Source: Ardenticatenaceae bacterium
Lineage (GTDB): Bacteria; Chloroflexota; Anaerolineae; Promineifilales; Promineifilaceae
DNA length: 64,000 nucleotides
Assembly: GCA_030065875.1 (NCBI GenBank)
Contig: JASJCR010000044.1
Coordinates: 1 to 64,000 of the forward strand
Reading direction: 5' to 3'
Below the pieces are notes generated by a model that was not told the DNA's origin, ran no database searches, and worked only from the letters and a program-made list of their open reading frames with translations. The position numbers were made by a program, and so were the translations under genes. Below are positions 8,081 to 24,470 of this stretch, in pieces (positions within the stretch are counted from its first letter, which is position 1; each line of letters starts with the position of its first letter).

Positions 8081-8680
8081 CTATTCAATCAGCCGAATCT
8101 TCCAGTAGAAACGATAGATGTGAATGACCCGGTCGTTCGAGCAGGGAATGACCCAATGGTCAAATCGATCTAGAAACGCGACGCTTTTGGCATCAGCCGG
8201 AGCTTGTGAAACACCGGCATAAGTGCCCATGGTGTTAATGTTTTTCTCGGTTTTTCCGTAAATTTCAATATGGGGAACCGCTGCGCCGCTGACGTTTGTG
8301 GTCCGGCCGTTGAGATAATTAACGTATTGAGTGAGCTGGCTGCGGTTGGCGGAAGCGAAACCGGATGCTGATCCGGCCCCGATGGGGGAAGAACCGATCA
8401 TCGTGGCAAACGCCGCGTATCGTTCAGCCACGCTAATCGCCGGTTCGCCACAAAACCCCCGCCACTCAATAGAAAGCGCGCGAGCGTAATCCTGAGCGGC
8501 CGACATCACGGCCGCATCCGATCCGGTTTGGGAGACCCGGCGAGCGTAGTATGTGCTGGCATAATCATAAATAATCGGTACGACCAGCAGCATGCCGCCC
8601 AGAAAAGCCATCACCAATATCGAGTTGTTGCCCTTTTCATCACGCAGAGCGTGCCAAATTTTTGACCACCATCGCTTCAT
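8081..8680 (-). CDS. TadG-like pilus assembly protein
   Basis: Protein of 199 aa with the TadE/TadG type of N-terminus: basic start, LRDEKGNNSILVMAFLGG and one hydrophobic helix (about 22-45), then VPIIYDYASTYYARRVSQTGSDAAVMSAAQDYA. The Tyr-rich region and the D-A-A-x-x-A-A-x-D pattern are typical of TadG. Unlike its neighbours it lacks Glu at +5 after the Gly, so it may not be processed as a pilin. Start at ATG 8680 after GGAGGTG; two GTG codons just upstream are less well placed. It follows TadE with a 43-bp gap and is probably a minor pseudopilin or anchor of the Tad machine. It is shorter than most TadG and has no VWA domain; that function may be carried by the separate VWA genes. Confidence 0.72.
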   Translation of the reverse strand: MKRWWSKIWHALRDEKGNNSILVMAFLGGMLLVVPIIYDYASTYYARRVSQTGSDAAVMSAAQDYARALSIEWRGFCGEPAISVAERYAAFATMIGSSPIGAGSASGFASANRSQLTQYVNYLNGRTTNVSGAAVPHIEIYGKTEKNINTMGTYAGVSQAPADAKSVAFLDRFDHWVIPCSNDRVIHIYRFYWKIRLIE

Positions 8681-8723
8681 CACCACACCTCCGGTTTTTT
8701 GCGCTAAATTACATCACCAAAGG

Positions 8724-9119
8724 TCAGTTATAGGGTGGTTCATAGCGCATCACGGCCGTGGAACTGACCCAGGGGTAGTTGGGCAGACTGCTGATTAGGG
8801 GAATGGGAGCCTTTTTGATTTGCAGCTGCACGGTGGCCGTACACGCTTGTCCACCGCAAGAGCAGTTCACGCGGCGCACGCCACCGTCCCAACCGATACT
8901 GGCGTTGGCGGCCGCAGCCTGACAGCTGTTGCCTACAGCTGCCGCTCGTGCCCCTTCCCGGGCGGCACCGGCGGTAATGACGGCCGTATAGCCGAGCAGG
9001 GCGAATTGCCAAACGATGGCGATAGTGATCATCACCACCGGCAGCATACCCAAAAACTCGATTGTTTCAGCCCCTTTTTCTTCTTTTAACTTGCGCCAAA
9101 AACGCTGTAAAGGTTTCAT
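8724..9119 (-). CDS. TadE-like pseudopilin
   Basis: Protein of 131 aa. The leader MKPLQRFWRKLKEEKG16|AETIEF matches the prepilin motif, with Glu at +5 and Phe at +6. One hydrophobic helix follows, then YTAVITAGAAREGARAAAVG, the hallmark of TadE, and a C-terminal domain with several Cys (NSCQ, NCSCGGQACTA) that could form disulphides. GAGGTGG lies just before the ATG at 9119; a GTG at 9134 is an alternative. TadE-type pseudopilins are thought to prime assembly or sit at the tip of Flp pili. Confidence 0.82.
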   Translation of the reverse strand: MKPLQRFWRKLKEEKGAETIEFLGMLPVVMITIAIVWQFALLGYTAVITAGAAREGARAAAVGNSCQAAAANASIGWDGGVRRVNCSCGGQACTATVQLQIKKAPIPLISSLPNYPWVSSTAVMRYEPPYN

Positions 9120-9178
9120 ATTCCACCTCTTCACCTGTATTTTGGATTATCCAGCTTGCGGCCAAATGCAGCTGGAAG

Positions 9179-10537
9179 TTACTCGTCGCCAAACAGCTCC
9201 TGTCGCTGCAAATCCCGTTCGCGCTGATCAGCCAACAGCTGTTCAAGATCATCGCGATAAGCCTCAAAACTGGCGTCGGCCGTTTCCCTGTTTAGCTCAA
9301 TGGCCTCGATCAAATCATCGAGTTGATCCGCCGTTTCTGACTGAGGCGCTTTCAAAATTTCCTGTCGAATCCGAATCGTCGACCGGTTGTACAGCGTATT
9401 GGTGCAAACGTTGTAGTTGACCCCGTTTTCAACAATACAAAAGGCGAAATTTGCGCGATTAAAAACCTCGTCGACGGAATCACCGAGCGATTGGCGGAAC
9501 TCTTCCTGATTTTGAGCGCTGTAGTAGGTGCCACCGCCGGCTTCAGCAATGCTGGCCAGCTGAGATACTTCTTCAGAATTAGTCACACCCAGGCCGATGA
9601 CATCCACCACCAGGTCGATGTTCGGCTGATTGTGCAGCCGGTCGGCGACCGCTACCGGATCGCCGTCACAAGTTTCTAAACCATCGGTCACCAAAATAAT
9701 TCGATTTACCGCCCCAACTTTTTCACCTAAAATCGTTTCTGCTGCCTCCAAAGCCCTGGCGATGGGGGTCCAACCATTTGGCTCAAATTGAGCCAAAACC
9801 CCTTCGATATTTACCGGAGTGATCGAGCCAAACTCGCCCAGCAGCTCGACAATATCACAGCTCTCAGGCTTGCCCGCTTCCGTGTTGTCCCCTTCGTGTC
9901 CATAAACCAGCAGACCGATATTGGCCAGATCGGAGGTTACGAGGACATAATCACGTAACGCCTCTTTCGAGGCACTCATGCGAGTTTCACTGCCAAACGG
10001 TTCAGCCATCGAGCCGGAGGCATCCAAAACGATCAAGACGTTTTGTTCCTGCGTCAGCGCCGATCCGCCGTCGCTCATCTGGCACATCGCCGGCGCACAA
10101 TCGTCGATCAGTGGATCAAAACCGGCTTCTTCTTCGATAAAATCGGGAATCAAATTGCCGTCGCTGTCCACAAACCACATCGGGTCCAACACCGGCATCG
10201 GGGTGGCAGTCATTGTTGGTTCAGGCTCGGCCGTTGGCGGTGGAGCAGTGCTGACGTCCGCTTCGGCTGTGGGGGGCGGGGCGGTGGGTTCTTCTACCTC
10301 GGCCTCGCCGCTGCTTTCTGATTCGGCGTCCGGCGCTTCTTCAACCACTGCCTCTTCAATAAGTTCTTCTTCGACTAAAACTTCTTCTTCGGGGGTGGCA
10401 GCAGTTGGCTCCACGGTCGGCTGGTTATTATCAGCGATTGCAGGTTCATCGGCCGGGCCGCTGCAGGCGATACAAGTTAACAGCACGCCCAGCAGAATTA
10501 AGGCGCTGATTCCTCGGACACGATAGCTGTACATCAT
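9179..10537 (-). CDS. VWA-domain lipoprotein of the Tad locus
   Basis: Secreted protein of 452 aa. The signal sequence ends ILLGVLLTCIAC, a weak lipobox. A long Glu/Pro/Thr-rich linker of low complexity follows (about residues 20-130), then a calcium-like DSDGNLIPDF loop (thrombospondin-3 type), and a von Willebrand factor A domain with a complete MIDAS: DASGS, the Thr of GWTPIARAL and TDG. The C-terminal 110 residues are helical and charged. VWA proteins in pilus loci often act as tip adhesins or assembly factors. It comes just after flp, separated from it by a strong terminator. The start is uncertain among two adjacent ATG (10537, 10534), without a good ribosome site. Confidence 0.8.
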   Translation of the reverse strand: MMYSYRVRGISALILLGVLLTCIACSGPADEPAIADNNQPTVEPTAATPEEEVLVEEELIEEAVVEEAPDAESESSGEAEVEEPTAPPPTAEADVSTAPPPTAEPEPTMTATPMPVLDPMWFVDSDGNLIPDFIEEEAGFDPLIDDCAPAMCQMSDGGSALTQEQNVLIVLDASGSMAEPFGSETRMSASKEALRDYVLVTSDLANIGLLVYGHEGDNTEAGKPESCDIVELLGEFGSITPVNIEGVLAQFEPNGWTPIARALEAAETILGEKVGAVNRIILVTDGLETCDGDPVAVADRLHNQPNIDLVVDVIGLGVTNSEEVSQLASIAEAGGGTYYSAQNQEEFRQSLGDSVDEVFNRANFAFCIVENGVNYNVCTNTLYNRSTIRIRQEILKAPQSETADQLDDLIEAIELNRETADASFEAYRDDLEQLLADQRERDLQRQELFGDE

Positions 10538-10564
10538 AGACCCAAACAGAGTGATTTGACCTGA

Positions 10565-10606
10565 TAAAAAAGCAGGCCACCACAGCATTACTCTGTGGTG
10601 GCCTTA
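10565..10606 (-). terminator. Strong intrinsic terminator after flp
   Basis: A 12-bp perfect stem (AGGCCACCACAG with its complement at 10574-10585/10593-10604) is followed on the minus strand by GCTTTTTTATC. It lies between the flp stop (10628) and the VWA lipoprotein start. This is the usual way to give the major pilin a short abundant mRNA while lowering downstream genes. Confidence 0.85.
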
Positions 10607-10965: not shown

Positions 10966-11883
10966 TTAGGGGCCAATCGTCGTCAGCTGACCACCAGAAA
11001 TGATGCTCATAACCATCATGCTTAAAAATAAGCAGAGGACCGATGGCACCACCAGAAAGACGGTTACCAGAGAGATATTGGGGGAGGCCTTGGCCGCGCG
11101 TTCACGGGCGCGGTTAATGCGAATCGTGCGTAACTCTTCAGCTTGAACCTCCAATGTTTTGGCAATCGGAGTACCCAATTCATCCGCCTGCAACAGGGCA
11201 TCGATAAACGCCCGGAGATCTTCCGAGGTGTTGCGCTTTACCAATCGTCGAAAGGCGATATTGCGCGGTTCGCCAACCTCCAATTCGCGAATAACGCGGC
11301 GCAGTTCTTCGGTAAGAGGGCCGGTGATATGCACGCAAACCAGGCGTAGGGCGTTGTCAAACGACATTCCGGCCCGGACCGAAACGACCATCATGTCCAG
11401 GAAATCCGGCATCGAAAGATTAATCTGCTCCTGCCGCTTTTTGACCTTGTTGTCGAGCCACAAACGCGGCAGGAAAAAACCGGCCGTGGGCCCGGCCAGA
11501 AGGGCGATGGCCCCACCGCACAAACCCAGCGTGATGGCCACAAAGAAGTAGACCAGCCCGCCGACCAGCCCCACTAGCATCATATACACCTGTACCCCTA
11601 AAAATTGTTGGGCATCCATATCATATGGCCGGCCGGCGTAGTCGAGTTTGAACGCCACTTTTTCCGGTTCCGAAAACGGTTCGAGAAATTCAAATCGTTC
11701 CGCCAGCGGCCGGGCAACGGGCAGCACCCGCCGCTGAAAATAAGTTTGTTTGGCTTCCGGAGCCGACTCGCCATAAACCAGCTCTGCCAGCAGTTTGCCG
11801 GAGCGCGGCACGCTCAAACGGCGCATCCCCTCAGCTAAAATTAACACCGCAACCATTGCCATTAAACCGATTAATAAACCCAT
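10966..11883 (-). CDS. tadC: Tad pilus inner-membrane platform protein TadC
   Basis: Protein of 305 aa of the type II secretion F family. One helix is at the N-terminus, two adjacent helices at about 95-145, then the cytoplasmic T2SF core (SMPDFLDMMVVSVRAGMSFDNALRLV, LEVGEPRNIAFRRLVKRN, ADELGTPIAKTLEVQAEELR) and a final helix pair. These phrases are characteristic of TadC. With TadB it should form the membrane platform on which the TadA ATPase acts. It follows tadB after 72 bp. Confidence 0.88.
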   Translation of the reverse strand: MGLLIGLMAMVAVLILAEGMRRLSVPRSGKLLAELVYGESAPEAKQTYFQRRVLPVARPLAERFEFLEPFSEPEKVAFKLDYAGRPYDMDAQQFLGVQVYMMLVGLVGGLVYFFVAITLGLCGGAIALLAGPTAGFFLPRLWLDNKVKKRQEQINLSMPDFLDMMVVSVRAGMSFDNALRLVCVHITGPLTEELRRVIRELEVGEPRNIAFRRLVKRNTSEDLRAFIDALLQADELGTPIAKTLEVQAEELRTIRINRARERAAKASPNISLVTVFLVVPSVLCLFLSMMVMSIISGGQLTTIGP

Positions 11884-11955: not shown

Positions 11956-12930
11956 CTAAACTCGAACGTCCGCGATCCGGCGAATAAACAAGAAGGCCAC
12001 AATTTGCACCGCCACAAAGATGGACAAAATAATCCAGCCAAAAACGCTTTCGAACAGCGGATTGACTAAATCTGGGGCGATATTGCGCAAAAAGAAAACG
12101 ATGATGACCGGCATCAAAGTCACAATGTAAGCGGAATAGCGCACCTCGGCCGTCATGGTATTCACTTCATCCCGCAGCTGGGCCCGCGAGCGCATGATGT
12201 CTGACAACTGCGACAGGGCGTCGACGAGATTACCCCCTGACTGCCGCTGAATCATCAGCGTGGCGATGACGACCGCCAGGTCATCACTAGGCAGCCGCTG
12301 CAGGGCGTTTTGCAGCCCCTCTTCGATACTGACCCCCAGTAAGTTGACCTCGCGCGACAGCTTCTGAAACTCCTGCTGGGCGGGGGCGGGCACCTTGCGG
12401 CTGACCTGCTCGATCGCCTGGGGGACGGACATCCCGGCCCGAATGGCGCTGGCCATCGTTGAGGTCGCTTCAATCAGCTGAAAGTTAAAGGCTGAAATGT
12501 ATCGCCGCCGCTGAGAACGCAGATAAATAGGGGGGATAAATATGGCCACGGCCGCTCCAATCAAAATCGATACGGAGTAATTCAGGCTGATGATCATGTT
12601 GCAAATAATAAAAACCACCGCGGCCGCCGCAAAACGTACCGCCATATACTCCGATGGTTTGAGCCTCAGGTTGGCGGCCATCAGCTGCTGGCGAATGGTT
12701 TCCGCCTTCTCGCTCTGGTCATATTGATTGCCCCAGCGCAAAAAGAGGCTGCCCTGGCGATTGGCGTTGAGCTCATCCTGATCAATACCCACTTCGCGGC
12801 TGCGCTGCAGCGCTCGCCGAATCAACCCCGAGTAACCAGCCCAATAAAGAACTGCGGCCATCACAAAAAATGCGGTTGCGCCAAAAAGGATGACGACGGT
12901 CATCCGTAAGCTGTCGAGTTCTTCAATCAT
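11956..12930 (-). CDS. tadB: Tad pilus inner-membrane platform protein TadB
   Basis: Protein of 324 aa. N-terminal helix (about 8-30), a cytoplasmic stretch, two helices (about 85-120), then the T2SF core (ATSTMASAIRAGMSVPQAIEQV, LPSDDLAVVIATLMIQRQSGGNLVDALSQLSDIMRSR) and C-terminal helices. The phrase RQSGGNL-x-D-x-L is the standard TadB signature. Start at ATG 12930 after AAGGAAG; a longer frame would overlap the VWA gene upstream. Partner of TadC. Confidence 0.88.
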   Translation of the reverse strand: MIEELDSLRMTVVILFGATAFFVMAAVLYWAGYSGLIRRALQRSREVGIDQDELNANRQGSLFLRWGNQYDQSEKAETIRQQLMAANLRLKPSEYMAVRFAAAAVVFIICNMIISLNYSVSILIGAAVAIFIPPIYLRSQRRRYISAFNFQLIEATSTMASAIRAGMSVPQAIEQVSRKVPAPAQQEFQKLSREVNLLGVSIEEGLQNALQRLPSDDLAVVIATLMIQRQSGGNLVDALSQLSDIMRSRAQLRDEVNTMTAEVRYSAYIVTLMPVIIVFFLRNIAPDLVNPLFESVFGWIILSIFVAVQIVAFLFIRRIADVRV

Positions 12931-12946
12931 AAAATTCTTCCTTTGC

Positions 12947-15520
12947 CTAACCAACCTGCCGACGTCGTATCATTAAAAAGGCCACGACACCGGCGACGAC
13001 CACCCCAAAACAGGCGATCAGCGGACCAAAACCAAGTGAAGGGCGGCCAACGCGGGCCTGCCACACCAAATCATCTTCTCTCAGCTGCAGCTGCCCATCA
13101 GGCGGGACAGCCCGCAGGCGAACTTCTCCTTCCGCACCCGACTCGGCCGTGCTGAACAATTTGAGCGTGATCTGGGTTTCTTCGCCTGGCGGCACTATAA
13201 ATTCGGCCGGAACAACCGTCAACTCGCCCAGTTCCGGTGATCCATCCCACTCAAAAAGAAGGCGCTCCGGCTGATTTGAGCCCGACTGTAAATACACCAC
13301 CACCTCGCCCCCGTCGATGGGAATAATCTCCGCTTCTTCTTCTTCCTGACGGATATTGAGCGAGCCGACGGTGCGCACCACCCAGCGCACGATGTTGTCT
13401 TCCAGCAGGGCGGTCGACGGTTCGCTTTCAAACGTGATGACCGCCTCTCCCGTTTGCCCCGGCGCATTTTCAGTGTACAGCTCGACCGAAAATTCGTGGG
13501 TGCCGGGCTCGGCCGGCACGGTCAAAACCGGTGGAAAAACAGAGGGGTTGCTCAACCCGGAGCCGGTTAAAGAAAGCGTGAGTGACTCCTCACGCAGCCC
13601 ATCGGTGGTGACCTCAACCGGCAGCACGACCCGCTGGCGAGAGACCTGAGAGACGTCACCAGTGGGGCTGTCAATCGAGATAGTGGGCACCGATAGGGAG
13701 AAGATTTTTTGCGAAAAATCGGTATAAGGCACAAAGAGTCGATCTTCAGAGGCCAAAATATTGGCCACCACCATCACCCTTAAATCGCCGGTCAAGCTCT
13801 CCGGCGTGTAAGAGAAGCGAAACAGCGGGTCTTCCTCCTGCCGGTTGGAAAACTCAAACGGCAGGGTGATTTCCGGCAGCGTTGGTCGAATGGCGGCGTT
13901 TTGATTGGGTCGCGGGGTGGCTGTGGGCTCGATGGCCACCACATCCTCGACGACCGGCGCCCCAACAACCTCGACCTCCACCGGTATGAGCCGGCCGTTC
14001 GGCTCGCGCACGATGACTTCGATCTCTTCAACCCCTTCCAGCTCGACCTCATCGAGGCCATCGAGATAAATCTCTCCGTTAAGCACGCCACCGATACCCA
14101 ACTCCCCATCGGCCGCGGCAACTTCAAGGCGCAGCTGCGGCAGCGGCCGCGCTTCCAGCAAATAGGTTTTGTATAAATGGATCGGGTCTTCCGAGAAGCG
14201 GGGGACCTCAACCCGCATCGTATAGTTACCCGGCGGCAGCTCTTCCTCGTATACCGTCGTGCCCCGACCGTCACCGCCTACAAAATCCCAATCCTGACCA
14301 TCGTCACGAGTTTCCAGCCAGTTGCCCACCTCAGCCGGGATCTCCGCGGCCGGGGCCAGATCGGCCGCCAGCCCACCCAGACGATCAACCGCCCCCAGCT
14401 GCAGCAGCCACGGCCGGCCGCTGGGCACATAGCGGATCGATTTGTCATCAATGGGATTGGTGGGCCGCGGGAGCAGCCAGCGAGCGCGCAGGTCAGAGCG
14501 CACCATCATCGTCATCCGCCCATTTTCGAGCGGGGATGTGAGCTCTGCAGACCAGGAACCGGCCAGAGGGACCTCCCCATCCGGGAAAACGGTTACGACT
14601 TCGTAGGGCAGTTCGCGGCTGCGATAGACCACCCCACCGCGCGACCCCCCAACGGCCAAATTATCCTGATTGGGCGCACTTAATTCGGTCAGGTTTGTCT
14701 CGGCTACATCACGATGCAGCACAAAACTCAGCTGCGACAGCCGGTAATCATCGCTTAAGCTGGCCAGGGGAGCCGGTTCATCGGCCGTTAACGAAAACGA
14801 TTGAATGTAGCGATCGTCAAGCAGCTGGGCGAAAACCTGCAGATAAACATCAACCAGCTCGGCGGCCGATGTGGCCGCAAAGACCCGCCCCCCCGTTGGT
14901 TCGGTGATGTTGGTTTGCAAATACGTTACGTCGGCATCAGCTCCCAAAGCGATCACAAACAGGGGCCAATCCGGCCGCTGCTGAAACCGGCCGACCGCTT
15001 CGGTGACCTGCTCCCGCTGGCTGCTGGGGTCCGGCAGCCCGTCGGTTAACAGCAACACCACCCGCTGCGGGTTTTCCGGAGAGCGTTCGAGTAAATCATA
15101 AGCCACATCAAGCGCCTGCCCCATATACGTGCCGCCGCTGGTTGTCTGGGTTGCCCCGTCTATGACTTCTTTGAGGATGGTGCGGCTGGTAAAGTTGCTG
15201 ACTTCGATCATCTCCTCAGTCAGCGCCACGGTTTGCCGCTGCCCCGACATCGTGATGATGCCAAATTTATCCCCGGGGCTGGCCAAATCCACAAAAAGTT
15301 TGGCGGCCGGTACCCGCAGCGCATCCGGGTCGTTGGCCCGCATGCTGCCTGAGGTATCCAGCACCAGCACCACGTCGATATTGGTTAACGTTTCAGCCGG
15401 GGTGGGTGATTGGGCCGAAAGCGGCCGGCCGACGCTCAATAAGAGAAGCAAAAGCAGCCAGACCGCTGCGGTCGGGATCAATTTAGCTTTTTGTTGATGT
15501 TGTGCCACTTTGTTCAGCAA
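12947..15520 (-). CDS. Large VWA membrane protein of the Tad locus
   Basis: About 857 aa. Signal or anchor helix (WLLLLLLLSVGRPLSA), then a VWA domain with an intact MIDAS (LDTSGSM, Thr of QTTSGGTYMGQAL, TDGLPD). Several beta-sandwich-like modules follow, a linker with EPTATPRPNQ, and a C-terminal TM helix (FGPLIACFGVVVAGVVAFLMI) with a basic tail RRRQVG. The topology is therefore mostly extracellular with a C-terminal anchor. It sits between the TadA and TadB genes. The start is unclear: no ATG precedes the signal sequence, and TTG 15520 (after TTGAGGAT) or GTG 15508 are best. A longer frame up to 15691 would translate a GC-rich dispersed hairpin and is rejected. Likely a surface component of the pilus machine. 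Confidence 0.78.
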   Translation of the reverse strand: MLNKVAQHQQKAKLIPTAAVWLLLLLLLSVGRPLSAQSPTPAETLTNIDVVLVLDTSGSMRANDPDALRVPAAKLFVDLASPGDKFGIITMSGQRQTVALTEEMIEVSNFTSRTILKEVIDGATQTTSGGTYMGQALDVAYDLLERSPENPQRVVLLLTDGLPDPSSQREQVTEAVGRFQQRPDWPLFVIALGADADVTYLQTNITEPTGGRVFAATSAAELVDVYLQVFAQLLDDRYIQSFSLTADEPAPLASLSDDYRLSQLSFVLHRDVAETNLTELSAPNQDNLAVGGSRGGVVYRSRELPYEVVTVFPDGEVPLAGSWSAELTSPLENGRMTMMVRSDLRARWLLPRPTNPIDDKSIRYVPSGRPWLLQLGAVDRLGGLAADLAPAAEIPAEVGNWLETRDDGQDWDFVGGDGRGTTVYEEELPPGNYTMRVEVPRFSEDPIHLYKTYLLEARPLPQLRLEVAAADGELGIGGVLNGEIYLDGLDEVELEGVEEIEVIVREPNGRLIPVEVEVVGAPVVEDVVAIEPTATPRPNQNAAIRPTLPEITLPFEFSNRQEEDPLFRFSYTPESLTGDLRVMVVANILASEDRLFVPYTDFSQKIFSLSVPTISIDSPTGDVSQVSRQRVVLPVEVTTDGLREESLTLSLTGSGLSNPSVFPPVLTVPAEPGTHEFSVELYTENAPGQTGEAVITFESEPSTALLEDNIVRWVVRTVGSLNIRQEEEEAEIIPIDGGEVVVYLQSGSNQPERLLFEWDGSPELGELTVVPAEFIVPPGEETQITLKLFSTAESGAEGEVRLRAVPPDGQLQLREDDLVWQARVGRPSLGFGPLIACFGVVVAGVVAFLMIRRRQVG

Positions 15521-15554
15521 GTTAATCCTCAATCCTGGATAAGGCGAATTACAA

Positions 15555-15735
15555 AAACTTTTCAAACATGCTCCCCTCCCCGCGCCGGGGAGGGGCTGGG
15601 GGAGGGGTGAGATGACGGCTAAAGACCCACCCCCTGGCCCCCTCCCGACACGGGAGGGGGAATTTGTTGAGCTGGAGAGAAATTTTCTCATTCATCAAAC
15701 AACCTGTCCATCCCGAACCTTGTCGGGGAGGGGGG
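15555..15735. repeat. GC-rich hairpin repeat between tadA and the VWA gene
   Basis: The 255-bp gap contains nested inverted repeats of the type ctccccgcgccggggag and ccctcccgacacgggaggg, joined by ggtgagatgacggctaaagacc, and another at 15708-15735 (cccgaaccttgtcgggg). Similar cccacgggggaa palindromes are at about 29.66 kb. It probably separates the two genes at RNA level, but no clear T-tail is seen. Confidence 0.65.
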
Positions 15736-15775: not shown

Positions 15776-18355
15776 TTAACTCGTAAATCGATTGCCGCGC
15801 ACGTGGGTGACGGTCGACCGATTAAAGATCTGCTCGTCGATATCGATGCCGTTGGCGGTGAAATATTCCAGACAGTTCGGCACATAACCGGTTGCTCTAA
15901 AGCTGCCTACCACTTGTGGTGGATCGTCTTCGCTTAATCCGACCTGCTCGAAGTTGAATATTTCTTTAAGCACGATTTGCTCGCTTTCGTCTCGCGTTAG
16001 CTCGCAAACGGCGATGATCTTGCGCGAGCCATCAGCCATGCGCGAAGATTGCACCACGATATCGAGGATGCTAATTTGCTCCATAATTTCGCGGGAGCTC
16101 AACTCGCGGGCTTCGGGCGACATGCGCACCATCGTTTCCAAACGGGACATTGCGTCACGAGGCGAGTTGGCGTGCGCGGTGGTCATCGAACCGCTGTGCC
16201 CGGTATTCATGGCCTGCAAAATATCCAGCGCTTCCGCCCCGCGCGATTCACCAACGACGATGCGATCCGGCCGCATGCGCAGGCTGTTGCGCACCAGGTC
16301 GCGAATTTTGATCTCATTTTCGCCAAATTCGTCCGCCGGCCGGGTCTCCAGCCGGACCCAGTGCGGCTGGCGCAGCTGCAGCTCGGCCACGTCTTCGATG
16401 GTGATGATGCGCTGCCAATCGGGAATAAACGACGACAGGACGTTGAGCAGGGTGGTTTTACCGGAGCCGGTGCCGCCGGAAACAACCAAATTGAGCCGCG
16501 TTCTGATACACGCCTCTAAAAATTCGGCCATTTGCGGCGACAGGGAGGCGGTTCTGAGCAAATCCGCCATGACCAGCGGCTCGGGGAAGCGGCGAATGGT
16601 GATCACCGCGCTGCTGTCCCGGCTTGAATCGGAACGATGGCCGTCTTTATCGAGCGTCAGCGGGGGCAGGATGGCGTTGACGCGGCTGCCGTCGGGCAGT
16701 CGCGCGTCGAGCATCGGCCGGTCTTCATCAATCCGCCGGCCGAGACGGGCGGCGATCGTTTCGACAATATGTTCCAGATGTTTGGCGTGACGCAGCCCGC
16801 TGCCTCCCAGGCTGCGAATTTCTTCGCTCGAGATTTGGCGCAGGCGGCCGTGCTGCTCGATATAAATTTCATCCGGGGCGTTGATCATGATTTCGCTGAC
16901 CGAATTGTCGTTCATGAGCCCGGCCCCTAATTCGCGGGTGAAGTAGTCGAGCGAGAAGATCCCGTCCAGCCGGTTAAACTCCTCTTCGCTGAGGGTTTCC
17001 TGCAGCCGGTGGAAAAATTTGGGTTTGACCCCGGTGGGGGTGAAATACCCCAGCGCCTGACCGCGTTCATCGATGCCGGTTTGCTGGAACAAAAAGACAT
17101 CTTTGACCATGATTTGCCCCTTACGCAGTCCGCGCACCTCAGAGACGCTGACGATGCGCCGCCCGCCGCCCGGCAGCCGGTTTTGCTGAATCACGATGTC
17201 AATGGCGCTGGCCAGCTGTTCGCGGATCGGCTGCAGCGGCAGCTGTTTGGCGCTTTCGGCCATCATCACCATATTTTCCAGACGGGCAAACGCATCGCGG
17301 GTTGAGTTGGAGTGAATGGTGGTCATCGATCCTTCATGACCGGTGTTCATCGCCTGGAGCATGTCCAGCGCTTCGCCACCGCGCACCTCACCGACGATGA
17401 TGCGGTCCGGCCGCATGCGCAGGGCATTTTTGACCAGCTCCTGGATGCTAACCGCCCCCTCACCCTCGACGTTGGGCGGTCGGGCCTCCAAACGGACCAC
17501 GTGGGGATGGGATTCGTACAGCCGCAGCTCGGCCGCGTCTTCGATGGTGATGATGCGCTCGCTGTGGGGGATAAATGTCGACAGCACGTTGAGCGTGGTC
17601 GTTTTACCGGAGCCGGTCCCCCCGGACACCAAAATGTTGAGTTTGGCCTTGACGCACGCCCGCATAAACGTCAGCATATCCTGGGTCAGGGTGCCGTAGG
17701 TGTCGACCAGGTCGACTTCGGTGAACATCGCCCGGCGAAATTTACGCACAGTCAAAATCGGCCCGTCAACCGCTAGAGGCGGGATAACCGCGTTGACGCG
17801 GCTCCCATCTGGCAGGCGGGCGTCAACGCGCGGGCTGCTTTCATCGATGCGCCGGCCGAGTGGGGAAACGATGCGATCGATGATGTGGCGCAGATGGGCC
17901 TGATTTTCAAATTTAATTTCCGGTGGGGCCAGCTCCAGCCGCCCCACTCGCTCGATATAAATTTGGGAGTATCCATCCGGGTGTTCCTCGTTGCCCCGCA
18001 CCCAATTCACCATGATTTCGCTGATGGACGGATCGCGCAGTAGAGGCTGAAGCGGACCCAGCCCTACCATCTCGTTTTTGACGATGTCGATAATTTCCGA
18101 CAGCACCTGGGGAGCCAGCAGCTGCTGCTCCTCGCGGATCATGTCCGTTACCCAACCGGCGATTTTTGATTCCCGCATCCGGGAAGGGAGGGTCACCAGC
18201 TGCTCGAGTTCTTTTTCCGGCAGTTCGCTGATCAGGCGATCGCGATACCGGCGAGCCAGCTCGTGAGCCACCCGTGTCAGGTTGTTGCCGTTGAGCTGCT
18301 GATCGGATATTTGGTGGGGTGTTTGCTGTTTATTTAAACGGTCTAAAATTGCCAT
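15776..18355 (-). CDS. tadA: Double-headed TadA secretion ATPase (tandem fusion)
   Basis: Protein of 859 aa, twice the usual TadA length, because it holds two complete ATPase copies in one chain. Copy 1: N-terminal domain about 20-200, Walker A GGTGSGKT (245-252), Asp box ITIEDAAEL (269-277), Walker B region RPDRIIVGEVRG (315-326), His box MTTIHSN (344-350). Copy 2: N-terminal domain about 475-600, Walker A at 627-634, ITIEDVAEL (651-659), RPDRIVVGESRG (695-706), MTTAHAN (724-730). All catalytic motifs are intact in both. Both copies share the N-terminal DARLPDGSRVNA motif. GAGGAGGC precedes ATG 18355. TadA powers pilus assembly as a hexamer; this form could make a hexamer from three chains. 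No sign of a frameshift or lost stop: the linker (about 430-475) reads as normal protein. Confidence 0.92.
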   Translation of the reverse strand: MAILDRLNKQQTPHQISDQQLNGNNLTRVAHELARRYRDRLISELPEKELEQLVTLPSRMRESKIAGWVTDMIREEQQLLAPQVLSEIIDIVKNEMVGLGPLQPLLRDPSISEIMVNWVRGNEEHPDGYSQIYIERVGRLELAPPEIKFENQAHLRHIIDRIVSPLGRRIDESSPRVDARLPDGSRVNAVIPPLAVDGPILTVRKFRRAMFTEVDLVDTYGTLTQDMLTFMRACVKAKLNILVSGGTGSGKTTTLNVLSTFIPHSERIITIEDAAELRLYESHPHVVRLEARPPNVEGEGAVSIQELVKNALRMRPDRIIVGEVRGGEALDMLQAMNTGHEGSMTTIHSNSTRDAFARLENMVMMAESAKQLPLQPIREQLASAIDIVIQQNRLPGGGRRIVSVSEVRGLRKGQIMVKDVFLFQQTGIDERGQALGYFTPTGVKPKFFHRLQETLSEEEFNRLDGIFSLDYFTRELGAGLMNDNSVSEIMINAPDEIYIEQHGRLRQISSEEIRSLGGSGLRHAKHLEHIVETIAARLGRRIDEDRPMLDARLPDGSRVNAILPPLTLDKDGHRSDSSRDSSAVITIRRFPEPLVMADLLRTASLSPQMAEFLEACIRTRLNLVVSGGTGSGKTTLLNVLSSFIPDWQRIITIEDVAELQLRQPHWVRLETRPADEFGENEIKIRDLVRNSLRMRPDRIVVGESRGAEALDILQAMNTGHSGSMTTAHANSPRDAMSRLETMVRMSPEARELSSREIMEQISILDIVVQSSRMADGSRKIIAVCELTRDESEQIVLKEIFNFEQVGLSEDDPPQVVGSFRATGYVPNCLEYFTANGIDIDEQIFNRSTVTHVRGNRFTS

Positions 18356-18381: not shown

Positions 18382-20583
18382 CTACTCCCGCGGTATTTCT
18401 ACCTCGTTCCACGTGCCGCTGCTGATATCAAATTGCAGCAATCCGGCGGTGGTGCCCACCCACAGCTGCGATTCGATTACGGCCACGCTGCTGATATCCA
18501 GCAGCGGTTCATCATTCACGGTGGGTATCGGTTCCCAAATTCCATTTTCGTAGCGGCTCAAACCGCCGTCACCGGCGGCCCACACCTGTAAACCATCGGT
18601 TAGCAGCCGGGTAATTTCCCCTGGGGGCACCCCATCGGTGGCGTCAAAGGTGCGCCAGGCTGCCCCGTTAAAAACGCTGACCCCCAGCGGCGTGCCCACC
18701 CACAACCCTTCGTCATTGGCCGTCAGGCTTAACACCAGGTCGGTTGGCAGTCCATCCGGTTCAGCGACAAACGAGGCCCAGCGCTGGCCGTCAAAACGAT
18801 TAATGCCTTCGCTGGTAGCTACCCACACGTCGCTGGTGACCAGCACATCGGTTACCCGATTGGAAAGGAGCACCGGCACCTGAAAGGTGGTCCAGACATC
18901 GCCGTCAAAGCGAGCCAGCCCGTTTTCAGTGCCAACCCAGAGGGCGCTGCGATTAAAATCATAATCCAGGGAGGAGATGACCCCGGCCGGATAGGTGTCG
19001 ACCGAGGGATCAAACACGCTCCAGTTGGTGCCGTCATAGCGGGCCAGCCCGTCTGATGACCCGACCCAGATGTCGTTCCCTTGACCGGCGGTGATCGCGG
19101 TGAGGGAGCCGGAGGGCAGGCCGTCAAATGAGGTAAACACCTGCCACGACTCCCCATCAGCGCTCAGTCGGGCCAGACGATCTGACCCGCCTACCCAGAG
19201 GGCTGAATCACCTAGCAAGGCGGTAACCCCCTGCGTGACCGGGGGGACGATGGTGGCGGTTGGGGCCACGGTGGGAACCGGGGTATTGGTGGGGGAGGGG
19301 GTTTCCGTTGGCGGCACCTCTGTCTCGACCGGTCTGGGTCGGGGAATCGGCCGATTCCCCACCGCCTCAACCGTTTCCTGCAGCGCGGCAATTTGAGCTT
19401 CATTTTCAGCCTGGGATGTCACCAGGGCGATGACTTGTGGATCTGGGGTAGGGTCTTCGGGGGGGGCGGGCAAGCTCACCCCCAACATACAGACAAATAA
19501 GGAGAAGGCCAGCAAAATCAGGTACGGTAGCCAGGTTTGGCGAATGTCGCCGGAAGCAGCCTGCACGCGTAGATTTCGCAAGGTGGCCAATCTCCCTTGA
19601 GGGGCCGGCTCAGATGCTGGGGTTTCGCCGACATCACTTTCACCTTCCGTTTCAGCTTCTTCCTGATCCTCTTCAACCGGGGCTGGAGCGGTAACCGAAA
19701 CGGCCGGTTTGGGAGCCGGCCGCCGCTGACCGGTGGTGTGCGGAGAGAGAAGCATCTCCAGGACCACCAGCAGTTCAGCCGGGGTTTGGTAACGATCCTG
19801 GGGATCTTTTTGTAAGCAGCGATTGACGATGAGCTGAATCTGGTTTAAATCCCGCTCGCCGGCCTGGGGGCGGGAAAGGGGAGGCGGCGGCTCCTGCAGA
19901 TGCTGGCTGACGACTTCGGCCAGGCTGCCTTCAAACGGCCGCCGGCCGCTGATCATTTCGTGCAAAATGAGCCCTACCACGTAGATATCGCTGCGGACGG
20001 AGAGCGGCTCGCTGTTAATTTGCTCGGGCGACATGTAGTTGGGCGACTGGCGGGCGGTTTCGTCCAAAGAAGCGGCCACGCCATAATCCAACATGGTTAT
20101 GCTGCCCTCCGGCTGCTGCAGCCAGATGTGGTCCGGCTGCAAATCGCCGTGGGGCCTCCCTCCGGCGTCATTTACCGCCTGGATCCCCTGAGTCATTTGG
20201 CGTGCCACCAGCAGCGCGTCGCGGATAGGCAGCTCCTGATTTTCCATGATATTGGTCAGGGAGTGCCCGGCGACGAGGGGTTGGATGTAGAAAGCCCGCG
20301 TTTGCCCTTTGGGCGCGCGCATGGTGCCGCAGTCGATCAGAGGCAGCACATAGGGAGAAAGCGGTTCAAAAAGCGGCCGGTAGTTGGTCATGAGTTTATT
20401 GACAAAGGTGCCGTCCACGTCAAATTCCGGCCGGATTACCTTGACCTTAAATGGTTCTCCGTCCGCTTCCCGGTTGGCCCGATAGATCTGGGCCAGGACA
20501 TCTTCACCAATCAGGGTGTCGAGCCAGTATCGATCCTCCTTGATCTGGCCGGTGATCATTTTTTCCGTTGCTAATTTGGACAT
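18382..20583 (-). CDS. Membrane kinase-like protein with beta-propeller sensor
   Basis: Protein of 733 aa. Residues 15-280: a protein-kinase fold with Lys48 in KVKVI, a catalytic loop HGDLQPDH (145-152) in place of HRDLKPEN, DYG (166-168) in place of DFG, SPE (185-187) and Asp199. Asp147 is kept, but the Lys and Asn of the loop are Gln149 and His152 and the Gly-rich loop is poor, so it may be weak or inactive. A Pro/Glu linker follows, one TM helix (351-371), a Thr/Pro linker, and a C-terminal propeller (about 440-733) of repeats reading W-V-G-x-x-x-G-L-x-R-x-D-G (two-component regulator propeller type), outside the cell. Its ATG overlaps the tadZ stop (TGATG), so they are coupled. It may sense a surface signal and bind the pilus machine. 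Kinase activity is not certain. Confidence 0.8.
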   Translation of the reverse strand: MSKLATEKMITGQIKEDRYWLDTLIGEDVLAQIYRANREADGEPFKVKVIRPEFDVDGTFVNKLMTNYRPLFEPLSPYVLPLIDCGTMRAPKGQTRAFYIQPLVAGHSLTNIMENQELPIRDALLVARQMTQGIQAVNDAGGRPHGDLQPDHIWLQQPEGSITMLDYGVAASLDETARQSPNYMSPEQINSEPLSVRSDIYVVGLILHEMISGRRPFEGSLAEVVSQHLQEPPPPLSRPQAGERDLNQIQLIVNRCLQKDPQDRYQTPAELLVVLEMLLSPHTTGQRRPAPKPAVSVTAPAPVEEDQEEAETEGESDVGETPASEPAPQGRLATLRNLRVQAASGDIRQTWLPYLILLAFSLFVCMLGVSLPAPPEDPTPDPQVIALVTSQAENEAQIAALQETVEAVGNRPIPRPRPVETEVPPTETPSPTNTPVPTVAPTATIVPPVTQGVTALLGDSALWVGGSDRLARLSADGESWQVFTSFDGLPSGSLTAITAGQGNDIWVGSSDGLARYDGTNWSVFDPSVDTYPAGVISSLDYDFNRSALWVGTENGLARFDGDVWTTFQVPVLLSNRVTDVLVTSDVWVATSEGINRFDGQRWASFVAEPDGLPTDLVLSLTANDEGLWVGTPLGVSVFNGAAWRTFDATDGVPPGEITRLLTDGLQVWAAGDGGLSRYENGIWEPIPTVNDEPLLDISSVAVIESQLWVGTTAGLLQFDISSGTWNEVEIPRE

Positions 20584-21983
20584 CAGGCGCTCTTTTGAGG
20601 TATTTTGGCCAGGGTTTGCATGCGATCATCCAGAATTTGCTTGCTCAAGGCGCGCACGCCTTGCGAAAAAGGCAGTTTTGGCTCTTCGAGGACCGCAATT
20701 TGGCTGGTGTTGACCAGCGGCTCCAGCTGTTTTTCTTTGGGCAGGTCGGGCAGCCAGGTGTATTCTGGGAATAGGGCCCGAACCTCGTTGGGTCTAATTT
20801 CAGACCGTTTTTCAGTTTTGTTAAGCACCAGCCGCAGGCGGTCGATGGAAATGCCAAAATTGGGCAGTAAATCGAGTTCAGCCCGCAGCGCTTTGATGGC
20901 CGGTACGTCGCTGGTGCACATCAGCAAGATGCGGTCGGCCGCTCGCAAAACCGCCAGCGTATTTTCATCGAGCGTCGGCGGTAAATCGATGACCACAAAT
21001 TCGTAAAAGCGGGGGGCGCTGGTTAACAGCCGCTTGGTTAACTGCACCAGGGCCTGCTTCGCCTTGGTTTTGCGCAGCACGTGCTCCATGATGTCGCGGC
21101 GAGCGCTGTCAAAGGGATCTGAGCCGATTTGCAGATTGGCTTCCAGCGTGTTGCTTAACAAATCGTCGGTGACCCCATCATATTCAGCATAAAAAATCGC
21201 TTCTTCGATAATGTCTTTTAGAAAATCGGTTTGTTCCCGGCCAAAAGGGCTGCTCAGCACGCGCAGGGAATTGAGCCCCGGCGTAGCGGTTGTGGCCCCT
21301 ACGATATTTTGGCGATTTAAGGAATCCATAACCGGCAAAAGATCGAGCACCGACCGCGTTGGGGTCAAATTTAAAAAGGTTTCCACTCCGCCAAAGGGCC
21401 AGTTGAGGTCGGCCAGAATGACGTTGCGGGAAGGTTCGCCTTTGGCCAAATCTTCAGTGGCCAGCGCGGCCGCCATATTGGCCGCCAAAATAGTGCGGCC
21501 GACGCCGCCTTTTAAGCTGTGAATGGCGATCACACCCCCAAAACGCGCTTCTTCGCGCTCCGGAATACGGGCCAGTAAATCAGCCGCGTCGCGCATCGGC
21601 TGCACCCAATCCTGGAAGCTCAGGGGTTCTGTGAGGGGGAACACGCCGGAAACGTGGGTGTTCATCAGCTGGCGGTGGTAGTTGGCGTTGTTGTATTCCG
21701 ATTCCCGCACGATGGTAAAGACCGCGGTTCGCGGCCGTTTCTGCTTAATGCTGCGCGCTGTTTCTACCGCCAGAGCGCCACCCATCCCTTCTTCGATGAG
21801 CAGCACATCCGGTTCCCAATCATTGATGCGTTCGAGACACTCCTGAACGCGACGGACCACGCCGACCAGCCGCGTTTCGCGCTTGCTGCTGATAAACGCT
21901 TCCAGATCGCTGATCAGTTCGTCGTTGGCCGCCGCAATCATGATTGCCAATGGCTGCTGTATGCCGATGATGCCGTTGTCCAT
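20583..21983 (-). CDS. TadZ/CpaE-type MinD-like localisation ATPase
   Basis: Protein of 466 aa. Residues 10-135 form a receiver-like domain (LAIMIAAANDELISDLEAFI, EPDVLLIEEGM) without a clear phosphorylated Asp, as in known TadZ. Residues 145-440 are a MinD/ParA-type ATPase with a deviant P-loop LKGGVGRT (157-164, Arg instead of the final Lys), ADLNWPFGG and FVVIDLPPTLD. An insertion of about 60 residues (SDPFDSARRDIMEHVLRKTK) lies in the middle. TadZ proteins position the Tad machine in the cell. GAAGGA precedes the ATG. It is translationally coupled to the kinase-like gene. Confidence 0.86.
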   Translation of the reverse strand: MDNGIIGIQQPLAIMIAAANDELISDLEAFISSKRETRLVGVVRRVQECLERINDWEPDVLLIEEGMGGALAVETARSIKQKRPRTAVFTIVRESEYNNANYHRQLMNTHVSGVFPLTEPLSFQDWVQPMRDAADLLARIPEREEARFGGVIAIHSLKGGVGRTILAANMAAALATEDLAKGEPSRNVILADLNWPFGGVETFLNLTPTRSVLDLLPVMDSLNRQNIVGATTATPGLNSLRVLSSPFGREQTDFLKDIIEEAIFYAEYDGVTDDLLSNTLEANLQIGSDPFDSARRDIMEHVLRKTKAKQALVQLTKRLLTSAPRFYEFVVIDLPPTLDENTLAVLRAADRILLMCTSDVPAIKALRAELDLLPNFGISIDRLRLVLNKTEKRSEIRPNEVRALFPEYTWLPDLPKEKQLEPLVNTSQIAVLEEPKLPFSQGVRALSKQILDDRMQTLAKIPQKSA

Positions 21984-22140: not shown

Positions 22141-22872
22141 TTACGGATCGGTAAACTCATCCATGGTGATCGGGTCAACCGGCCGGGAATCCAGCTCATC
22201 GAGGCGGCGAATGACCAGTCGAATTTCCGCCCCAAAGTTGGACATAAACACCAGGCGGGTTGAATCTTCCGGCCGCAGCGACAGCGTGACCACGCCATCT
22301 TTGATCAGCTGGCCGGACGGCAAAAACCGATTGGCGCCGACAATGCCGGGCACCGCTTCATCGCCGGACGGCAATAAATTGTTGACCGCCAACACTTTAA
22401 CGTCTTCGAGAAGGACTTCCGTGCGCGGATTGTTTTCTTCATTTGTATAAGAAACGATGACGTCCACCCGATTTCCCGGCCGGACGTTTCCGCCCACGCT
22501 GCTAACCAGGTCGGTATTGAGGGCCACGGCCCGGAACCCCGGTTCCAGACCCGCATTGGCGTCCAGCAAATTGCGCTGAATAATTTGCCCTTCTTCGATA
22601 TCGGCCAGGGCCACATACCCGATAGTCAAATCTTGCGGGTTAAAGAAGTAGCTGTCGTGCACAAAGTTGCGCGGGATTTCCTGGACGGTCAACATTTCAG
22701 GTGAAATTTGGGTTCGGGCCGGAATTGACTCTGCCGCAGCGACGACCGTGACCTGGTCACCGATAATGCGTTCCAGGCGATTGAGATAGCTAAAAAACAA
22801 GCTGCCGGTGATAAAGGCCAGCACAATCGCCACGATGGTCAAAATCCAGCCTCGTCTTTTTCGTTCTTGCAT
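22141..22872 (-). CDS. cpaB: Flp pilus assembly protein CpaB/RcpC
   Basis: Protein of 243 aa: basic start KRRG, one TM helix (about 8-30), then an SAF domain (ESIPARTQISPEMLTVQEIPRNF, GYVALADIEEGQIIQRNLL) and a RcpC domain with the typical VGGNVRPGNRVDVIVSY and VTLSLRPEDSTRLVF. In diderm bacteria CpaB works with a secretin; here no secretin gene is seen, so it may act at the peptidoglycan. AAGGAG lies about 14 bases before the ATG, rather far. Confidence 0.85.
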   Translation of the reverse strand: MQERKRRGWILTIVAIVLAFITGSLFFSYLNRLERIIGDQVTVVAAAESIPARTQISPEMLTVQEIPRNFVHDSYFFNPQDLTIGYVALADIEEGQIIQRNLLDANAGLEPGFRAVALNTDLVSSVGGNVRPGNRVDVIVSYTNEENNPRTEVLLEDVKVLAVNNLLPSGDEAVPGIVGANRFLPSGQLIKDGVVTLSLRPEDSTRLVFMSNFGAEIRLVIRRLDELDSRPVDPITMDEFTDP

Positions 22873-22930: not shown

Positions 22931-23980
22931 TTAAAGATGAACGCGGTACTCACTGAGGCGGCGTTTTTGCTGCTGGCCGTTGTGAAAGGGGACGCGTTTT
23001 TCAAACCGGCGCGCGGCCACGATCGCCTGCTTGGTGCGTGTGGCCTGCTGAATCATTTCTTCCCAGGGGGGGGTAACGGACAGGCCAAACATTTTTCGCC
23101 CGAGGCGGCCGAACAGAAGGGGGGACCACTGCGGGTCAACCGCATGATCCAGACCAGCCGCCGACATCGCCTGAGCTAGCTCCGAAGCGATTTTTTCATA
23201 TCCGAGCTGCCACCACAGAATCTGCGGGCTGCCCCCCATTTCAAAAAGAGACTCCGTTTGGGTGGCCAATCCTGCAGCCAGATCGGGCACTGATTTTTGC
23301 GTATCGAGCATCTGGAAGTACGGTTTGTCATTGCCGACCAGGGTGAGCAAAACCGGCTGCCGTCGCAACGACACCCCCATCCGCCCGGCCGCTGAATTCA
23401 TTTGCGGCGGCTGTTTCTGAGCGTGGATCAGTTTCTGAAAGGGGCGTAGGGCGGGGAAAGGGACGATCATGTCGCTGCGCATCACGCGCTGCAGCCGTTC
23501 GCCAAACGCCAGCAGTTCCGCCCGGGTCCACCCCGATTGGGCTAAGGTGGCCAGCACTTCCACATAGCGAGCGTAAGCGCTCCCCAGCAAAGGCACTTCG
23601 GTGACGTAGATATCTGCCGGCCACAGCAAATTGCGCACAAAATGAGCGGTGACAATCGCTTTGTCGATTTCAGCCCAGTAGTGAAGCGACAGGACGGCCG
23701 GATACTGCTCCAGGGCTTCTTGATAAATCGCCTGGAACGAGTCGGAAACCAGCGGCAGCCAGCGAATGGGCCGGGGTTTCTGAAGATTGGCAACCAAAGC
23801 CGGTGCCGGATAATCGCGCTTGAGATCGATTGTCTTGCGCTCCGCCTTAACCACTCTTGGCACCACAAATATGTTTAATTCTTTTAACCGTTCGGAAGGC
23901 AGCTCAATCGCCCCATCAACCACGATGGCCACGCTTTGTGCTGCCTGACTTGATTCATGCCCATTTGTTTCTGACGCCAT
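22931..23980 (-). CDS. Divergent DegV-like protein of the Tad locus
   Basis: Protein of 349 aa with the layout of DegV fatty-acid-binding proteins: VAIVVDGAIELPSERLKELNIFVVPRVV at the start, WLPLVSDSFQAIYQEAL where DegV has its T-S-Q-P-S segment, LHYWAEIDKAIVTAHF in the lipid-binding loop region, a G-S-A-Y turn, SGWTRAELLAFGERL, and a second lobe with VGNDKPYFQML. No signal or membrane helix. The match is weak in the key loop, so it may have lost lipid binding. Its place between cpaB and the prepilin peptidase suggests a helper role in the pilus system. The function is unknown. Confidence 0.55.
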   Translation of the reverse strand: MASETNGHESSQAAQSVAIVVDGAIELPSERLKELNIFVVPRVVKAERKTIDLKRDYPAPALVANLQKPRPIRWLPLVSDSFQAIYQEALEQYPAVLSLHYWAEIDKAIVTAHFVRNLLWPADIYVTEVPLLGSAYARYVEVLATLAQSGWTRAELLAFGERLQRVMRSDMIVPFPALRPFQKLIHAQKQPPQMNSAAGRMGVSLRRQPVLLTLVGNDKPYFQMLDTQKSVPDLAAGLATQTESLFEMGGSPQILWWQLGYEKIASELAQAMSAAGLDHAVDPQWSPLLFGRLGRKMFGLSVTPPWEEMIQQATRTKQAIVAARRFEKRVPFHNGQQQKRRLSEYRVHL

Positions 23981-24032: not shown

Positions 24033-24470
24033 TTAACTGCCGAGCAGAAAAATCGCGGTCCCGATGGATAAAAATGGGGCAAACGGGATCAGCGTTTGGC
24101 GATTGATTTTTTTAAACAGCACGCCGATTAACAGCAAAGACGCGCTCAGGTGAGCCACAATCAGGGCTGGGATAATGAGGGGATAGCCTAAAATTAATCC
24201 CATAAAAAAGGCCAGTTTTACGTCACCCATCCCCCCTTTTTTGCCCAGGGCTACGACCGGAATTAACATGAATCCCGCTCCGACGGCCGCGCCCAGCAAA
24301 CCGGAGCGCCAGCCGGGCGTGATGAACATGAGCAGCAGCGAAATACCGATGGCCGGGACGATTATCTTGTTCGGAACACGCCTTTCCCGCAGATCGCTGA
24401 TTGACACAGCGATTAATATGGCCATGCAAACCGCTTTCCAAACCCAAAGCCACCAGGCCGTATCATCCAT
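24033..24470 (-). CDS. Prepilin peptidase, TadV/CpaA type
   Basis: Aspartic membrane protease of 145 aa with four hydrophobic segments. The two catalytic Asp are visible: Asp26 in SDLRERRVPN and Asp83 in GGMGDVKL. It lacks the N-terminal methyltransferase domain of larger PilD enzymes, as is normal for TadV/CpaA. It should cut the G|xxxxE leaders of flp, TadE, the second pilin, the 580-aa protein and the toxin. It begins two bases after the histidine kinase stop. Confidence 0.88.
   Translation of the reverse strand: MDDTAWWLWVWKAVCMAILIAVSISDLRERRVPNKIIVPAIGISLLLMFITPGWRSGLLGAAVGAGFMLIPVVALGKKGGMGDVKLAFFMGLILGYPLIIPALIVAHLSASLLLIGVLFKKINRQTLIPFAPFLSIGTAIFLLGS

Follow-up and report, generated by a model that had tools for sequence, protein, structure and literature searches.

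How a Tad pilus motor is built when its ATPase chain carries two motor modules is the question raised by the 64,000-nucleotide stretch of Chloroflexota DNA analyzed here (the window; Ardenticatenaceae bacterium, contig JASJCR010000044.1). A first-pass annotation had proposed that two TadA modules are fused in one polypeptide, and this was borne out. The 859-codon frame is intact with no internal stops, and GAGGAGG, a strong ribosome-binding site, lies immediately upstream of its ATG. Pfam T2SSE (PF00437) matches the protein in two stretches (E = 1.8e-112), as does the TadA model TIGR03819 (E = 5.9e-164; 545 bits against a cut-off of 373). The N and C modules of the window protein are 48% identical, and the halves of the gene share 73-74% DNA identity in their best blocks. 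The best structural and sequence relatives of the tandem protein are the CpaF chains 9e24, 8rjf, and 8rkd. These results identify the window gene as a member of the TadA/CpaF family that differs in the number of modules per chain.

The family feature of one module per chain with NTD1, NTD2, and an ATPase domain is absent from the window protein, which has two modules and one NTD1 (Table 1). The annotation had credited each half with its own N-terminal domains, which holds for NTD2 in both modules and for NTD1 in the N module; the C module lacks the three-helix bundle. The tandem alignment and an AF2 model concur that the second NTD1 is missing and that the C module starts at NTD2. The AF2 model of the tandem chain has a mean pLDDT of 74.6 and a pTM of 0.56, which is too low to place the modules relative to each other.

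Table 1. Coordinates of the tandem TadA gene, its module features, and neighboring tad/cpa genes in the window.
Feature	Position	Strand	Remarks
TadE/G-like protein	8081..8686	-	Sub-threshold Pfam Tad match
TadE-like minor pilin	8724..9134	-	
Second VWA protein	9179..10588	-	Relatives also in the G166 and G224 loci
TadC platform protein	10966..11883	-	Tandem-specific clade
TadB	11956..12954	-	Tandem-specific clade; tip QSGGNL, lacking the flanking Glu seen in singles; overlaps VWA gene
VWA membrane protein	12947..15691	-	Signal sequence, VWA with DxSGS motif, C-terminal TM; between tadA and tadB
Tandem TadA/CpaF ATPase, two motor modules per chain	15776..18355	-	859-aa ORF, ATG at 18355, stop at 15776; T2SSE and TIGR03819 matches
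C module (residues 481-859)	15776..16915	-	NTD2 and ATPase domain, without NTD1
C-module pore loop	16307..16345	-	Acidic; ADEFGENE replaces PNVEGxGE
C-module Walker A	16451..16477	-	GGTGSGKTT
C-module helix α5	16751..16786	-	Diverged, R198 to T
Junction, about 25 aa	16916..16990	-	Short helices where a second NTD1 would be
N module (residues 1-455)	16991..18355	-	NTD1 three-helix bundle, NTD2, ATPase domain
N-module extended pore loop	17447..17485	-	Canonical NVEGxG
N-module Walker A	17597..17623	-	GGTGSGKTT
N-module helix α5 (CpaF 189-200)	17867..17902	-	Platform-facing; R198 retained
NTD1 helical bundle (about residues 25-97)	18065..18283	-	N module only; AF2 helices 23-44, 47-55, 58-75, 82-96
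Ser/Thr protein kinase	18382..20583	-	Upstream of motor gene; C-terminal LWVGT-type repeats (LWVGTxxGLARFDG)
CpaE/TadZ-like MinD-family ATPase	20583..21983	-	
CpaB/RcpC	22141..22872	-	
Prepilin peptidase (TadV-like)	24033..24470	-	

The nucleotide-binding motifs of both halves, Walker A (GGTGSGKTT), Asp box, Walker B (VGE), and His box, are undamaged as the annotation had stated, and three arginine fingers are present in each module as well. The key residues in Caulobacter CpaF numbering are K287, T288, E312, R347, and E357, with R217 and R223 as fingers (PMC12019362). The catalytic set is complete in all 18 of the module halves first examined. R217 is lost in some members found later, namely the middle and C modules of G766 and the C module of G778b, and the Walker A lysine, Asp-box Glu, Walker B Glu, R347, and His box are retained in every readable module. 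Both module types would thus be expected to bind and hydrolyze ATP in most members.

In a tree that also included 68 single-module TadA sequences, the tandem N modules group in one clade and the C modules in another (support 100/93, nine members each), and the split stays when five loci are added (support 100/99, 14 and 15 members). None of the single-module sequences falls inside either clade, and the same sub-groups recur within both. The summed branch length of the C modules is about twice that of the N modules. The tree program warned that the long C branches meet, and the recurrence of the same sub-groups in the shorter N branches argues against an artifact. Treating the halves separately, as the annotation had suggested, thus yields two old clades, and the fusion looks like the outcome of one old duplication. 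A recent duplication was rejected on the two separate clades and the 48% identity of the halves.

Surveying the window's phylum for the fusion, which the annotation had also suggested, located tandem TadA in at least 13 genomes, the window genome included, among roughly 870 different genomes reached; scoring covered only some of the candidates in each genome, so this number is a minimum. The other carriers are three of the nine genomes in family f12, two of the ten in f33, both f62-class genomes, and 5 of 158 in the class of G705. The gene was absent from same-genus relatives of the window genome among the draft assemblies searched. The distribution in the phylum is patchy; the gene tree joins f33 to f62 although f62 is in a different class, and this requires either transfer or repeated loss. 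On other contigs of the window genome lie two more TadA genes, each with a single module (476 and 529 aa). Plasmid records gave single-module matches only among the 15 best listed, and a contig scan with the tandem protein, in which the query peptides were variable, returned just one single-module TadA from an Elusimicrobia MAG. A search of the open literature found no paper on tandem or fused TadA.

One of the 13, the draft genome G766, carries three TadA modules in one ORF of 1187 aa (L140:5712-9272, minus strand), and Pfam T2SSE matches it three times. The front of the middle module is C-like and its back is N-like, a hybrid that is as expected from unequal crossing-over between two modules. 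The repeats are 76% identical in DNA, so the triple is not a simple assembly repeat.

Other unusual TadA-like frames were seen at several loci. Directly after the G773 tandem gene lies a degenerate stand-alone TadA-like ORF (L141:5930-7024, minus strand) with Walker A GGTSTGKTT and neither pore loop nor NTD1. By eye, two single-module TadA frames of 716 and 641 aa have an N-terminal response-regulator-like receiver domain (L072:6819-8969 and L073:7471-9396), and an Elusimicrobia TadA (L074:895-3048) has a MinD/CpaE-like N-terminal domain in the same frame.

Tandem tadA adjoins tadB, tadC, and further tad/cpa genes. A VWA gene separates tadA from tadB in 11 of 11 readable tandem loci versus 0 of 18 single-module loci, where tadB directly follows tadA in 18 of 18. 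The VWA metal-binding motif is lost in two readable f12 loci, which have DRSGRA for DxSGS (L067:12259-14316 and L068:6654-8669). TadB and TadC of the tandem loci form separate, long-stemmed clades. The TadB tip consensus in single systems is xEVGGNLAEIL, and its flanking acidic residues are gone in tandem systems; among 18 single systems the tip charge ranges from -1 to -3, and among 10 tandem systems, 3 of which came to light after the charge pattern was noticed, from 0 to +3. TadC tips shift the opposite way and are more acidic in most tandem systems. Few independent lineages lie behind these charge shifts, and the long shared stem of the tandem systems could account for part of the co-variation. 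Several other tandem loci likewise have kinase-like genes nearby. In the window's Tad cluster, cpaB and the prepilin peptidase gene flank a DegV-family protein gene (22931-23980). The Flp major pilin was not recognized by a simple motif scan of the window and the other loci tried.

An unbiased scan with 300 windows, each 12 residues long, compared N and C modules for retention of the single-TadA consensus. C-specific divergence is strongest at residues 189-200 and 326-337, the two top-ranking windows of the 300 that do not overlap. Yen et al. predicted that CpaF contacts CpaG/CpaH through α5 (189-200), loop 8 (201-212), and the extended pore loop (325-337) (PMC12019362), and mutating pore-loop residues 331-334 or loop-8 D208 abolishes pili in C. 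crescentus (PMC11300603); this contact map consists of AlphaFold models and two mutants, for which the authors caution about reduced expression. Consensus retention in N and C modules is 0.67 and 0.27 for α5 and 0.86 and 0.61 for the pore loop. Outside the platform elements it is equal (0.73 and 0.72; 0.72 and 0.71). R198 in α5 is invariant in single TadA and N modules and is present in none of the first nine C modules and none of six found later. Position 331 of the pore loop is Glu in most singles and all N modules; most C modules have Phe, Tyr, or Asp there. Modules found later followed this R198/E331 code without exception (5/5 N-type, 6/6 C-type). The C pore loop has a conserved, DxFGEGE-like pattern of its own, and the later C modules (-1 to -2) are less acidic than the first nine.

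The reading we favor, and consider probable, is that three tandem chains make one pseudo-hexamer with alternating N and C modules on the predicted C3 TadB/TadC platform, the C module facing TadB and the N module facing TadC. The alternating ring was already proposed in the first-pass annotation; it is plausible and now backed by the module-specific divergence of the platform face and by the change in the platform, the geometry itself being inferred. CpaF is a single motor for both extension and retraction and forms C2 hexamers (PMC11300603, PMC12019362), and its modeled platform has three CpaG/CpaH pairs in C3 symmetry, one platform subunit for each CpaF (PMC12019362). An old duplication would have fused two TadA modules, with the NTD1 bundle then lost from the second, and the window gene would encode the motor of a distinct Tad pilus sub-lineage. 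Three chains would close a six-module ring whose three-fold heteromeric order matches that of the predicted (TadB-TadC)3 platform, so that N-C-N-C-N-C stands opposite TadC-TadB-TadC-TadB-TadC-TadB and three NTD1 bundles are left per ring. The N module, with canonical α5 and NVEGxG, would face TadC, and the C module, with changed α5 and an acidic pore loop, would face TadB, whose tip lost its acidic residues; this would amount to a charge exchange, with the TadB tip contacted by the acidic C-module loop and TadC by the loop of the N module. With the N-C-N-C order fixed by fusion, a different platform subunit would be engaged at each half-step, with a predicted effect on pilus dynamics. A strictly alternating tandem ring has C3 composition as against the known C2 hexamers, and reconciling the two requires that opposite N and C modules fire at the same time; in such a C2 cycle opposite sites would act together, each firing pair consisting of an N and a C module. 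More tentatively, it is possible that the ring is covalently split into three N-C pairs (two N-C-C triples in one relative), with each module type dedicated to one platform protein.

Tandem ATPase modules often stack as double rings, as in ClpB and p97, and in the main structural rival six tandem chains build one ring of N modules and one of C modules, with only one of the two rings in contact with the platform. The diverged platform-contact parts of the C module are as expected for a ring off the platform. Nevertheless, stacking appears quite unlikely: the C pore loop has its own conserved pattern with no drift, TadB changed alongside it, the junction is only about 25 aa, and the triple would need three stacked rings. 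A neutral fusion, with the C module a slowly decaying passenger in a ring near an ordinary homohexamer, could explain why C modules evolve about twice as fast by branch length, the loss of R217 from certain G766 and G778b modules of the C type, and the degenerate third TadA ORF beside the G773 tandem. This too is unlikely, since the Walker A lysine, Asp-box and Walker B Glu, R347, and His box persist wherever readable and the divergence is focal with a matching platform change.

The annotation had also suggested that the modules divide extension and retraction or serve two substrates, and for this we found no support. The N and C modules are old and distinct, and in Caulobacter one CpaF performs both tasks (PMC12019362), which makes a division of labor conceivable; but the catalytic set is full in both modules of the window protein, the differences are concentrated on the platform-facing surface, and neither a second pilin set nor any direction-specific feature turned up, so specialization is very unlikely. 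The chance that assembly or annotation joined two neighboring tadA genes is negligible. The window genome is a draft of 198 contigs, but no stop or frameshift lies between the halves, the halves are only 73-74% identical in DNA, and the same fusion occurs in 12 other genomes, including a single-contig genome in f12. An artifact was rejected on these independent genomes, the intact frame, and the diverged halves.

For type IV pili and type II secretion alike, how a six-fold ATPase ring and a three-fold platform are coupled is an open question. In a natural tandem, one of two alternating subunit types can be mutated without artificial fusions, and the module-specific platform surfaces predict which platform protein each module contacts. 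One, two, and three modules per chain are divisors of six, and if the model is true, the symmetry rules of type IV pilus motors become directly testable.

The anatomy and the platform co-variation go beyond the earlier reading, and the tandem protein is a variant of TadA. A survey of 292 CpaF orthologs by Yen et al. in 2025 defined three classes and did not report a tandem class (PMC12019362). The tandem N module shares the minimal 3HB-NTD-CAD core of class I, and the tandem protein differs from classes I-III by its second, fused NTD-CAD (PMC12019362). The archaeal homologues FlaI and GspE2 belong to the same superfamily and have the same domain order per module but, unlike the tandem, a single module per chain. 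By analogy only, the α3β3 ring of F1-type rotary ATPases likewise alternates two homologous subunits about a three-fold axis; F1 is of another family, both TadA modules keep their catalytic residues, and the tandem ring is a proposal. The PilT/PilU rings described in their entry titles as C3 ocococ (6ojy, 9n32) indicate that three-fold alternating states are possible in the superfamily, but these are homohexamers whose alternation is conformational, whereas that of the tandem would be compositional. CpaF/TadA of Caulobacter crescentus (8rjf, 8rkd, 9e24) is of the same family as both tandem modules, with the same catalytic residues and the operon partners TadB and TadC. It is a single-module homohexamer with six NTD1 bundles, whereas the tandem has two modules per chain, NTD1 on the first only, and a changed platform face on the C module.
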